From: Pirellulaceae bacterium
GTDB taxonomy: Bacteria > Planctomycetota > Planctomycetia > Pirellulales > Pirellulaceae
Reading direction: 5' to 3'
Assembly (NCBI GenBank): GCA_020852965.1
Contig: JADYZV010000040.1
Location: 1-52,968 of the forward strand
DNA length: 52,968 bases
Below the pieces are notes generated by a model, which did not search any database, was not told where the DNA came from, and saw nothing but the letters and a program-made list of their open reading frames with translations. This document shows, in pieces, positions 2,829 through 52,173 of this stretch. The first letter of the stretch is position 1. Each line of letters starts with the position of its first letter. The position numbers were made by a program, and so were the translations under genes.

Positions 2829-3231
2829 AAGACGCACTTCCGAACGACTGATATTGTGATGATTGAAACGTCCACCAGTATAGCCACGCGGTATGCACTC
2901 CTGGAATGTGGCCCAACGCTCCGCCGTCGGATTCCCCTTGCGTTCACTAAACTTTGGAGTGCACCGAGTTCTCGGAGCTTTGGCCTGGCGAGCGACACAC
3001 CGCGTATGAGAACGCTAACGGTGGAAAACAAGTTGGTAGTGCTCCTGGCTGTAGTGCTTGCATAGAATTGTATCTCAGTGCAGGATGTCCTCGCGTCCAT
3101 CCGCACCGGTGACCCAACCTTTCCAGTTGATGTGAACTTTGGGGAAGGCCAAAGCGGGGATGAATCCCCGCAATCCAAAGTTTTGCAACTCAGCGCAGCT
3201 AAGGAACGAGCATACTCCCACTCTCATCGCC
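2829..3231. other. 403-bp intergenic region without a recognisable gene
   Basis: This is the leader of the heme-binding gene plus the 3' flank of the permease gene. Short ORFs on both strands have no recognisable product. The only clear structure is one copy of the dispersed palindrome at 2903-2935. Confidence 0.5.
2903..2935 (+). repeat. Dispersed palindromic element, copy A
   Basis: It reads AATGTGGCCCAACGCTCCGC followed by CGTCGGATTCC. It matches the family consensus (AATGTGG, then core CGACGCTCCGCGTCG) with one substitution and one inserted C. The copy at 20913-20943 has the same inserted C, so the two form a subtype. Confidence 0.7.
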
Positions 3232-8278: not shown

Positions 8279-10504
8279 CTATTTCAGAGGTAAAAGCTGG
8301 ACTGCATCGACGACGACATAGCCATCGGTTTCGGCATTGCTGAATTCGACCAATGCCCTCCCAACGGGAAAGTGATATTCGCCGATCGTCGCAAATGCCC
8401 CCTGTTCGATCGCGGCTCGTTGGTCGACTTTCACCTTATGGGACTTGTCCCCTGCATGAACAGTGACAGGCACATTGGTGGCTCGATTCGCGTTGGGCGT
8501 GTAGGAGATACGAACTTGATACAACCCAGCTTCTTCGATCATGATCGGAAATTGAATGCTCTGGTGTCCCTTGTCCGTATTGCCATCGTGGCGATAGCCG
8601 ATTGCGACAAACGGACCGATCGAATGGCTCATTGCATCAAAGCCTGTCCGCGTGGCCGCTTCATCATCTACGACAATTCCGTCCAACGATTGTGGATCGA
8701 GCGACACGGTCGGTTTTTTCACTGGACCATCCCACGTCAAAATTTGTCCGTCCGCAATTAGCCTCTCCTTCAAAACACCGAAGTCGATTTCTTGAACGGG
8801 TACATTGGTTTCGATGGCCTGCATAGCGGCGGTCGCGGCCGATTGGCCCAAGACCATGAACACCGGTTCCATGCGTATCGAGCCAAAGGCGATATGCGAC
8901 GCGCTCAGGCAAACTGGAACCAACAAATTCTCGCATTCACTACTTTTAGGCGACAAGGCGCCATAAGCGATCCCATACGGAGAAAAGCCACCTACCTCGA
9001 CGTCTCCTTCGTTCAAGACATTTCCATTGGCAGCCACATAACGCTGAACATTGTGGGAATCCATCGTGTAGGCGGCCAAGCCAATTGCGTCTTGTGCGAC
9101 CTCGCGTCCTTGGCAGTGATGTTGCGTCATGACTGTCGCTCCCAACATGCGTCGCGCCTCACGCACATAGAGCTGTTGCTGCCAGCCAGCACCTTGTTCA
9201 AACTCGTCGCGGCACATTCCCCAACGCGCCACCTCCTGTCGGACGTGATCTGGCACACGTGGATGATTCGCCAACGTCCACATCAATCCCTGCTGGTAAA
9301 TCAGGTGACTTCGTCTGATCGCGTCACGCTCCTCATAGCTCGCGTCTGGATAGTCGTAATTGTAGCCAATATAGTCGGTCGAGAATGCGGTCCGGTTGTT
9401 CGTATCTGTCTTACGATTGGGCATACCCGAGTTGATCCAGGGCATGCCACGCTCCCCGGCCTCAAAATTGCGCAATAGCAACTCGTAGACCAGCGGATCG
9501 TACTCGGCAGGTTTTATAAACGGGATGCGATTTTCGGGATGATCGGTCAAGCACATACGGTAGCAGAAGGCCTGCAGGCGAGAATCGCCATGCCCCTCCT
9601 CACCTGGGCCATTGGCGTCGATTCCTGGGAGCAAGCCACTCGACGCATCGCCAGACACGACGTAGGGATCGACACCGGGCACGAATTGATGATATATTGC
9701 CTGCCGAGTCTGAACGCCATTGAGCGTCTCGTCGTAAACGTCGTTCCCCTCACGTCCGACCGTATAGGAGATCCCAGCGCCCGCTAACAAGTCTCCTTCG
9801 TAGGTCGCATCGATAAACACGCGTCCCCGAAACGTACGGCCACTTTCTGTCCTGATTGCCACGATCCGTTTACCGTCAAGCGTCACGCCCCGCACTCGGC
9901 CGCTCGTTCGCAATGTGGCTCGACGCTCCGCGTCGTGATTGCTGGATTGTAATGTGGCTCGACGCTCCGCGTCGTGAGCACTGGTGCTTGTTCGATCGAG
10001 CCTCTGATCAAGCTCCAATTGAATATCATCTTCCCGAACCCACTCTTGCATAATCGCCAAAGCTGCCGACGGTTCGAAGGTCCACATCGTCTCCTCATTC
10101 GCACCAGTCCGAGTCTGGCCGCTGTCTTGATACTCCTGGCGAGACTGCCACCGCCAATTCTCAGGATGATCGTAGTATCGCCGAACGCGTTGATAGAATT
10201 CGCGGGCAATTCCGCCAATAGCCGCCTTGTTGCCAATATCGGTTTGCCCAAGCCCACCGGTTGTAAGGCCACCGATTCTGTTGCCAGGCTCGACGATGAC
10301 CACTGAGCCACCCATGCGCTGCACCTGAATTGCCGCTGCGATTCCAGCCGAGCTCCCCCCATAAATCACCACATCGTAAAGACGATCATCCTCAGCGCTG
10401 GCCTCCCCATTCAACGAAGCTGTGAGGTAGGTAAGCACAATGAATGCGAGCAGAGCTCGACGACGTAAATGTTGGCAAGTGCCAAGCGATGTTGAGGCTT
10501 TCAC
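8279..10504 (-). CDS. Secreted FAD-dependent oxidoreductase with C-terminal golvesin/xanthan-lyase-type domain
   Basis: This 741-residue protein has a signal peptide (about 1-37, RRRALLAFIVLTYLTASLNGEASA), then a dinucleotide-binding start (YDVVIYGGSSAGIAAAIQ, about 43-60) and GGLTTGGLGQTD, typical of the FAD_oxidored family. FIDATYEGDLLAGAG and the C-terminal FMVLGQSAATAAMQAIE complete the FAD domain. Residues about 615-741 form a beta-rich domain ending in VEFSNAETDGYVVVDAVQLLP, as in golvesin/xanthan-lyase C-termini. GTG at 10504 is the only reasonable start, with AGGAT about 14 bases upstream. Residues 177-198 contain HDAERRATL twice with a 13-residue period. That DNA is two copies of the intergenic palindrome found elsewhere in the window, so it appears to be an in-frame insertion between a strand near DQRLDR and VRGVTLDGKRI. 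It heads the ligase-dehydrogenase block. Confidence 0.85.
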   Translation of the reverse strand: MKASTSLGTCQHLRRRALLAFIVLTYLTASLNGEASAEDDRLYDVVIYGGSSAGIAAAIQVQRMGGSVVIVEPGNRIGGLTTGGLGQTDIGNKAAIGGIAREFYQRVRRYYDHPENWRWQSRQEYQDSGQTRTGANEETMWTFEPSAALAIMQEWVREDDIQLELDQRLDRTSTSAHDAERRATLQSSNHDAERRATLRTSGRVRGVTLDGKRIVAIRTESGRTFRGRVFIDATYEGDLLAGAGISYTVGREGNDVYDETLNGVQTRQAIYHQFVPGVDPYVVSGDASSGLLPGIDANGPGEEGHGDSRLQAFCYRMCLTDHPENRIPFIKPAEYDPLVYELLLRNFEAGERGMPWINSGMPNRKTDTNNRTAFSTDYIGYNYDYPDASYEERDAIRRSHLIYQQGLMWTLANHPRVPDHVRQEVARWGMCRDEFEQGAGWQQQLYVREARRMLGATVMTQHHCQGREVAQDAIGLAAYTMDSHNVQRYVAANGNVLNEGDVEVGGFSPYGIAYGALSPKSSECENLLVPVCLSASHIAFGSIRMEPVFMVLGQSAATAAMQAIETNVPVQEIDFGVLKERLIADGQILTWDGPVKKPTVSLDPQSLDGIVVDDEAATRTGFDAMSHSIGPFVAIGYRHDGNTDKGHQSIQFPIMIEEAGLYQVRISYTPNANRATNVPVTVHAGDKSHKVKVDQRAAIEQGAFATIGEYHFPVGRALVEFSNAETDGYVVVDAVQLLPLK
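9912..9977 (+). repeat. Two tandem copies of the dispersed palindrome inside a coding sequence (copies B and C)
   Basis: Copies at 9912-9938 and 9951-9977 are identical over 27 bases: AATGTGGCT, then CGACGCTCCGCGTCG, then TGA. The repeat period is 39 bp (13 codons), so the host frame is kept. Read on the minus strand of the FAD oxidoreductase gene, each gives HDAERRATL (residues 177-185 and 190-198). The core can form a hairpin with stem CGACGC/GCGTCG and loop TCC. Confidence 0.9.
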
Positions 10505-20536: not shown

Positions 20537-21024
20537 CGAAGGTCAAGCTTTAGGGTGCCCAGCCATTGCGAAACCGGTATGCCCTCAACTTTTACCCGTT
20601 GGACGTTTCGGCAGAAGCTCGATCTAGCAACTGCATGAGCTTTCGAACAACTACAAATTTGATCTGTCGCTGAGAAGAATTCGAGCTTCTCCAATTGTTC
20701 GCATCCTCGAATCGTGTCTGAAACTGTGATGGCTTCATCGCTCGACCGATGGTAGCTACGAGCTGGAGAATTAGCAAAGACCGTACCGCTTCAAGCAAGC
20801 CGCAGATTGTCGCGACTATGTTTATCTATCTCCACTTTTTCTGTTCTTCCAACGGCGCTCGTGTACGATAGTCCAACAGACTGCGCTTCATTCGTTCATG
20901 CTCCGAAGGGCGGGATCCGACGGCGGAGCGTCGGGCCACATTCGAACAACAGCCAGCGCTACATTCGATCTATCTAAATCCCAGATTGTTCATAACCCGG
21001 ATTAAAGCGTTGTGCGCAAAATGA
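20537..21024. other. 488-bp region with degraded sequence and one palindromic repeat
   Basis: No intact gene was recognised. The missing 5' half of the PRC-barrel gene should lie at the left end but is not found in any minus frame. Copy D of the dispersed palindrome occupies 20913-20943. Confidence 0.4.
20913..20943 (-). repeat. Dispersed palindromic element, copy D
   Basis: Read on the minus strand it is GAATGTGGCCCGACGCTCCG followed by CCGTCGGATCC. It shares the extra C of copy A (2903-2935). Confidence 0.8.
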
Positions 21025-29060: not shown

Positions 29061-29475
29061 ATCGCCTAGAATCGGATAGTCGCGACGGTTGCAACAAATA
29101 ATTTGTATTGACCGTTACGACCGGTAGTTGCGCTCCTACCCACCGATACAAAAGATCCGATTATGACGCCTGTAATGTGGTTCGACGCTCCGCGTCGGAT
29201 TGCATTTCCGAGCGCGAACTTCGCGGTGCTTGTCGCAAACTTGTAGGATCGCGAGCGGGCACCGCGCAGTTACGGAAGGTCGAAGCAGGTGATCAAAGTA
29301 CCGCATTTCCGCGCCCCAACGAGCATAGGCACGGTGACGCAAAGCGATTGAGCACAAACCAGAACTCCGTTTGCCAATTGACGCTGACTCGAATACGATT
29401 GCAAAGATTGCATAGCGCGCTGCCCGTGCCGTAACTCGCAGTACTCGTTACGAGCCTACTCCAGGATGCCAGCGA
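29061..29475. other. 415-bp intergenic region with palindromic sequences
   Basis: It lies between the ABC ATPase and TolC genes, both minus. It holds copy E of the dispersed palindrome (29174-29200), a CGCGAACTTCGCG palindrome just after it, and CGATTGCAAAGATTGCA at 29396-29412, which recurs at 44572-44588. No gene was recognised. Confidence 0.5.
29174..29200 (+). repeat. Dispersed palindromic element, copy E
   Basis: AATGTGGTT is followed by the unaltered core CGACGCTCCGCGTCG and GAT. Confidence 0.85.
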
Positions 29476-52080: not shown

Positions 52081-52173
52081 CCCCACGCTCCGCCTCAAAA
52101 ACTTCAGCCTTAATGTGGCCCGACGCTCCGCGTCGGAATCTCCTCATCCATCTAGCCCCACGCTCCGCGTCGG
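52081..52173 (+). repeat. Cluster of dispersed palindromic elements (one full, two partial)
   Basis: A full copy (AATGTGGCC plus core CGACGCTCCGCGTCG plus GAA) lies at 52112-52138. Partial copies CCCCACGCTCCGC (52081-52093) and CCCCACGCTCCGCGTCGG (52156-52173) flank it. The cluster fills the 113-bp gap between convergent genes and could terminate transcription from both sides. Confidence 0.85.

Follow-up and report, generated by a model that had tools for sequence, protein, structure and literature searches.

A REP-type palindrome duplicated in frame within a predicted oxidoreductase gene belongs to a nearly genome-private repeat family of a Pirellulaceae bacterium

Background

How does a short piece of palindromic DNA come to lie, in two copies and in frame, inside the gene of an enzyme? 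The question is raised by a contig of a Pirellulaceae bacterium (GenBank assembly GCA_020852965.1, contig JADYZV010000040.1), of which the whole analysed stretch of 52,968 nucleotides is hereafter called the window. On its minus strand, an uninterrupted open reading frame (ORF) at 8279-10504 encodes a protein of 741 amino acids, which Pfam searches and comparison with its relatives identify as a flavin adenine dinucleotide (FAD)-dependent oxidoreductase (PF12831, E 1e-109); a golvesin domain lies at its C-terminus, and its N-terminus resembles a signal peptide, as judged by eye. Within this gene the 27-bp sequence AATGTGGCTCGACGCTCCGCGTCGTGA occurs exactly on the plus strand at 9912-9938 and 9951-9977, with a 12-bp spacer (9939-9950) and hence a period of 39 bp. 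Read on the minus strand, the two copies encode the peptide HDAERRATL at residues 190-198 and 177-185, respectively. An initial annotation, made from the sequence alone, had pointed out these copies and the survival of the reading frame, and both observations are confirmed. For a 24-base core, chance would produce about 1e-7 copies on both strands of the 8.37-Mb genome. We propose, with considerable confidence, that these 66 bp represent a head-to-tail pair of a nearly private palindrome of the repetitive extragenic palindromic (REP) type, which entered a length-variable stretch of the gene, the reading frame passing through both copies without interruption. The interpretation offered by the initial annotation is supported, with the amendments given below.

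Results and discussion

The palindromic segment is missing from homologous proteins

A homologue search covered 80 genomes, including the bacterium's own, and found matches in 70; loci were retained for the best 30, which, with the window's own left out, gave an alignment set of 29 homologues that are 48.7-69.5% identical to the query by BLAST. The segment is absent from all 29 of these homologues from the best-matching genomes. Where the nearest of them (L038) reads RLDRTPLADAGHRARGV, the query reads RLDRT-STSAHDAERRATLQSSNHDAERRATLRTSG-RVRGV and is 23 residues longer. The length of this site differs among the homologues and a conserved stretch ending in FIDATY follows directly downstream; given these two features, the insert likely sits in a loop. 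The loop placement suggested earlier draws its support from the alignment; the AlphaFold model made from the single sequence of the window protein had a mean pLDDT (predicted local distance difference test) of 38.4 and was left unused. A PDB sequence search with the same protein gave two matches, neither of which covers the insert, and an Rfam scan of window positions 9700-10200 gave no match.

Comparable inserts are seen in other genes. For a gene encoding an MnmE-like GTPase, 24 loci were retained from 50 genomes searched (own included); the peptides encoded by its three copies of one subtype of the repeat (D, see below) are missing in 23 of 23 aligned homologues. The same holds (23/23) for a DUF7133/ThuA gene, with three D copies at one place and a single copy of another subtype, T, at a second place. 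In a pyridoxal phosphate (PLP) decarboxylase the repeat peptide is absent from PDB entry 4obu, in the one alignment shown of 41 matches. Some homologues (L164, L187 and L205) carry longer, unrelated loops at the insert places, so that these sites are naturally length-variable. The copies in QueG and in a squalene-cyclase-like protein could be aligned to PDB entries, with alignments indecisive for clean insertion; for the MnmE-like protein, the top PDB matches span its GTPase part only, and the copy in a helicase falls outside the significantly aligned parts.

A family of GTGG-tagged palindromes

The repeat is a REP-type palindrome with a GTGG tag, a short stem and three subtypes. The family consensus is yAATGTGGC(C/T)CGACGCTCCGCGTCG; subtype T, to which both oxidoreductase copies belong, is often followed by TGAG, subtype C reads CCGACGCTCCGCGTCGG, and subtype D ends in CCGTCGG. 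A published search rule for short REP hairpins requires a stem of 7-20 nt, paired throughout and closed by a loop of 2-5 nt, with GTAG or GTGG on its 5' side at a distance of 0-2 nt (PMC6006769). The C-type hairpin, with its GTGG tag, 1 intervening nt, 7-bp stem and 3-nt loop, falls within this rule, while the T type, with a core stem of 6 bp, and the commonest type, D, with a 6-bp stem and a 6-nt loop, fall just short of it. One inverted pair of copies folds as a 67-nt hairpin (-31.9 kcal/mol, z -9.1).

The initial annotation had likened the repeat to the Rickettsia palindromic elements (RPE). Palindromes in frame within unrelated protein genes are indeed common to the present family, RPE and the Wolbachia palindromic elements (WPE), which are treated in PMC3733652 and PMC2996958. 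That the repeat is itself an RPE rather than a REP is nevertheless highly improbable in a comparison that concerns the tag alone: RPE-4 and RPE-6 have a terminal CGTC tag and a different sequence (PMC3733652), whereas here GTGG is the unpaired tag, as in GTAG/GTGG REPs, and CGTC sits within the paired stem.

Distribution in the genome and in the window

Genome-wide, 209 places lie within three mismatches of the T consensus (100 of them listed), against none for a reversed-pattern control, and exact matches to the 18-base head number 419. Sequence amounting to 2.18 Mb, or 26% of the genome, was read in two sets, in both of which elements were counted at up to four mismatches. The first (1.14 Mb, window included) was picked around listed copies and is by design enriched in T copies; it holds 261 elements (116 D, 80 T, 65 C). 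The second (1.04 Mb) was picked regardless of copies and comprises contig starts, one stretch within contig C197 and extended portions of C111, C99 and C9; it holds 48 (39 D, 8 C, 1 T), which makes 309 in all. Reversed controls gave none in either set.

Among the 261 copies of the first set, 63 lie wholly within predicted ORFs and 14 overlap them partly; the 48 copies of the second set are mostly intergenic (34 clear of ORFs, 7 partly and 7 wholly inside). Given predicted coding fractions of 76% and 72% in the two sets, genes are strongly avoided by the repeat, yet not spared. Elements lie within 60 bp of gene 3' ends in 85 of 211 cases and of 5' ends in 24 of 191; 139 of 201 are between co-directional genes, above the expectation from base content, and 26 of 201 between divergent genes, below it. 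A rough extrapolation from the second set gives about 385 copies and about 48 affected ORFs genome-wide; the copy estimate is similar in magnitude to the 419 exact heads.

The window itself holds five further copies besides the oxidoreductase pair: a D-type, CCGTCGG-ended copy with one mismatch at 2905-2930 (plus strand), an exact D-type copy at 20917-20942 (minus), a copy at 29174-29197 (plus) with one mismatch to the T consensus and a G as the next base, as in the C type, an exact C-type copy at 52112-52136 (plus) and a degenerate copy with four mismatches to the C consensus at 52149-52173 (plus). The initial annotation had listed the palindrome elsewhere in the window, with two starts (2903 and 20913) that move by a few bases. 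It had also named the same residues at the same position in distant homologues, or the lack of other copies in the genome, as findings that would speak against its reading; neither was encountered: the 29 aligned homologues lack the segment, and other coding and intergenic copies exist.

Copies within genes

In the sequence read, 70 copies lie wholly inside 38 predicted ORFs (63 + 7 copies in 32 + 6 ORFs). The first set and the first 0.64 Mb of the second contribute 67 copies in 36 ORFs; 46 of these are internal, 12 lie within 60 residues of the predicted start and 9 within 40 residues of the end. Of 20 host ORFs searched against Pfam, two had no match and 18 had one at E 0.001 or better; among the 18, a polymerase-like protein matched only below the curated cut-offs. 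The hosts include, besides the MnmE-like GTPase, QueG, the squalene-cyclase-like protein and the PLP decarboxylase, a Ski2-like DEAD helicase, a major facilitator superfamily (MFS) transporter, DUF1549/DUF1553 proteins, a Ser/Thr kinase, AtuA and a thioredoxin-trypsin protein. In the last (L096:6946-8715, C36:25070-26842), PTAERRATLERRATLERGATLERQTL forms a short in-frame stutter, apparently an expansion of a portion of a single REP copy.

Head-to-tail pairs within one ORF have a period divisible by three in 23 of 24 cases (36-72 bp), against 35 of 82 elsewhere (Fisher p 1.1e-6). As pairs of one array are not independent, counts were also made per array, giving 14 of 15 in ORFs and 19 of 51 in others (p 1e-4). 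The in-frame arrays have two to four units. The exceptional pair, with a period of 31 bp, belongs to a glucuronate isomerase ORF and is close to its predicted start; the true start may lie downstream of the pair. ORF calling is in itself biased to multiples of three; spurious ORFs, however, would be expected to show no such bias, as most frames of the repeat lack stops.

One could suppose that the peptide is the selected functional module and the DNA palindrome its by-product, given that copies occur in many predicted proteins and their arrays are in frame. We consider this very improbable: a single DNA sequence is read in all six frames, though very unequally (20, 16, 11, 9, 9 and 2 of 67 of the 70 copies), giving unrelated peptides; exact copies are about equally frequent inside ORFs (44/67) and outside (131/205); and 205 of 289 copies overlap no ORF. 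The use of six frames suggests instead that the added predicted peptide is probably a tolerated passenger. In this respect the family differs from the PARCEL coding repeats (PMC2996958), which likewise are palindromic DNA encoding tandem peptides: their canonical product is a 25-residue amphipathic protein repeat, whereas here the peptides from one DNA sequence depend on the frame.

Pairs, arrays and the search for a transposase

Counting copies within 100 bp of each other as neighbours, there are 106 head-to-tail pairs (82 outside and 24 inside ORFs) against 15 inverted pairs. Ten of the 15 are T/C, T/D or T/T pairs 16-20 bp apart and constitute a candidate mobile unit; the pair that folds as the 67-nt hairpin is one of these ten. 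The spacers of the head-to-tail arrays are locus-specific, and a locus from another metagenome-assembled genome (MAG; L138) has two copies, in a 49-bp unit including flanking DNA, where the own genome has one (C41:39488); local tandem duplication or loss of copies is therefore well supported. Truncated 5' heads (TAATGTGGC...) stand directly before a full copy, for example at C39:102386-102410, C181:47450 and C11:25695, an arrangement suggestive of copying that halted at the hairpin. In all, 10 such partial heads were found at 8 loci, an eleventh match there being a degenerate copy, and the 29 lone heads are at background level.

In many, though not all, REP families, a gene for a REP-associated tyrosine transposase (RAYT) is flanked by the same repeat. 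The genome has seven matches to Y1_Tnp (PF01797), and all seven genes were inspected as potential partners and rejected, the element being close to none. Two of them, C169:454-753 and C101:253-570, are at contig ends, with less than 0.5 kb visible on one side. The best RAYT-like match, on C101, scores 44.9 bits against a cut-off of 80; this contig carries an excess of exact T copies (6 of 66, 0.6 expected, p 4e-5 before correction for 199 contigs), and C101 is a lead only. The Y1 gene on C119 has inverted ends of about 20 bp, as judged by eye, and a truncated copy on C56 shares its 5' part. The Y1 gene on C155 is followed (L031, about 1200-1260) by a different palindrome, GCCCCGGC...GCCGGGG (CCCCGGC...GCCGGGG), which is perhaps another REP family with its own transposase; it resembles palindromes in C21 and L140. 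Other repeats surround the Y1 gene of C48 (L134:12200-14500), namely a palindrome whose arms read CCGAGGGT and ACCCTCGG, the sequence ATCCGCGGTTTCACCGCTAAATGCAA and an extended series of TCATTTG/TCATTGG units.

These results bear on the alternative that no transposase is involved and the hairpins are copied only through replication errors, such as slippage or template switching. It would account for the head-to-tail arrays with their flanks (82 + 24 pairs) and for the stuttered 5' heads (10 partial heads at 8 loci), and would agree with the finding that no Y1 gene is closely flanked. By such errors, however, dispersed single copies with unrelated flanks and the 16-20 bp linker of 10 of the 15 inverted pairs are harder to make, and we hold this alternative to be rather unlikely.

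Proposed history of the repeats

The best reading of the family is that copies multiply locally and that a gene can retain them only if its frame and the length of the loop permit. GTGG-tagged hairpins, some of them as inverted pairs able to form the 67-nt hairpin, are dispersed genome-wide, and the usual proposal for the spread of REPs is a Y1/HUH transposase acting in trans. Gene prediction and alignment show that the copies are chiefly intergenic, close to gene 3' ends, and in some cases lie within genes. A landed copy may then be multiplied together with flanking DNA into the head-to-tail arrays observed, presumably by a slippage-like process, and the periods divisible by three suggest that selection would retain in genes only those copies and arrays that keep the frame open. 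The initial annotation had spoken of a spreading element tolerated in coding sequence; the repeat is dispersed, nearly private and present in many predicted ORFs, and its mobility we infer from this distribution.

Several observations weigh against the insertion of mobile REPs into genes. The T copies in two of the compared genes look more like replacements than clean insertions, given that the fourth copy of the MnmE-like gene alters protein length by no more than about 3 residues, and that of the DUF7133 gene adds about 9 relative to the nearest homologue; no empty site was seen at the DNA level. The scarcity of inverted relative to head-to-tail pairs is unusual for REPs, and no element lies within 1 kb of the seven Y1 genes, the nearest to the one on C48 being at about 1.2 kb. 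Genes were predicted with a home-made codon scorer, and the 12 of 67 copies within 60 residues of a predicted start may be untranslated. The later 0.4 Mb adds an ORF pair of period 46, both copies of which are within 50 residues of the predicted start; its inclusion changes the totals to 23 of 25 for pairs and 14 of 16 for arrays, with this pair as the only one counted from that 0.4 Mb.

Tentatively, one may go further and regard the REP family as an active source of new protein sequence, in-gene copies growing by steps of three nucleotides into tandem arrays in dozens of genes, through replication errors or an unlinked transposase; we see this as possible rather than probable. This large planctomycete genome offers a big set of palindromes, apparently of recent origin, that occupy identifiable genes in several frames, and it makes two questions directly testable, namely whether REPs seed new protein segments and which enzyme or error moves them.

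Relation to published REPs

REPs have been reported in Planctomycetes, with several families in Rhodopirellula baltica (Di Nocera et al. 2013, PMC3733652), as have GTGG variants and intragenic REPs, most of them in Opitutus terrae and Rickettsia conorii (PMC3733652). Since intragenic REPs are in print, the present family adds to a known class and is unusually rich in head-to-tail arrays. The remark of the initial annotation that no description is known for planctomycetes needs narrowing, as REPs there and intragenic REPs of other phyla are on record in the same paper; among the papers listed by our literature searches, none concerns intragenic REPs in a planctomycete, and cases from R. baltica may be in the supplementary lists of PMC3733652.

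The closest likeness is to GTAG-20 of O. terrae, a mostly GTGG-tagged member of the GTAG superfamily, with the same tag, short stem, short loop and many copies (PMC3733652). The 3'-end bias, the tag-outside (HH) pairs of unlike subtypes and the clusters with flanking DNA are shared with GTAG-superfamily REPs, and intragenic REPs of O. terrae likewise add 20-30 or more residues to ORFs (PMC3733652). Unlike these, the present family is near-private to its own genome, and no closely flanking RAYT was found for it. As in REPINs (Bertels and Rainey 2011, PMC3116915), inverted pairs form a long hairpin; unlike in REPINs, the inverted doublet is not the main unit (15 against 106 head-to-tail pairs).

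Occurrence in other genomes

In the samples searched, the family is nearly private to its own genome. At up to one mismatch, matches occur in 3 of 79 other relatives (1, 1 and 2, respectively), and the exact 18-base head is found in 2 of 391 other planctomycete genomes sampled, once in each. Read in context, the matches in three genomes (G063, G116 and G384) are without the AATGTGG start and look like chance. The two matches in G011 are at the end of a contig that aligns with the own genome (96% over 865 bp, 92% over 824 bp, 73% over 992 bp), and thus are the same family at a shared locus; this sequence is also present as L138, from Planctomycetales bacterium HKST-UBA45. A second MAG, HKST-UBA27 (L140), aligns over three stretches at 83-87% identity and likewise carries a copy where its sequence corresponds to the own genome.

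An assembly or binning artefact might be suspected in a draft of 199 contigs with 3.6% contamination. It is scarcely credible here, as many copies are deep inside contigs and in intact ORFs, contigs of the two other MAGs (L138 and L140) carry the element at matching loci, and periods within ORFs mostly keep the frame.

A 20-mer of the repeat is present in at least 16 stretches from named genomes, a scan from which near records of the own genome may be left out; some of these stretches look like chance or other families, and one viral contig also matched. Similar GTGG hairpins in several other planctomycete MAGs count against strict privacy. One of these MAGs has two such hairpins in inverted orientation (L146:6841-6889) inside a 607-codon open frame, measured from stop to stop or to the locus end.
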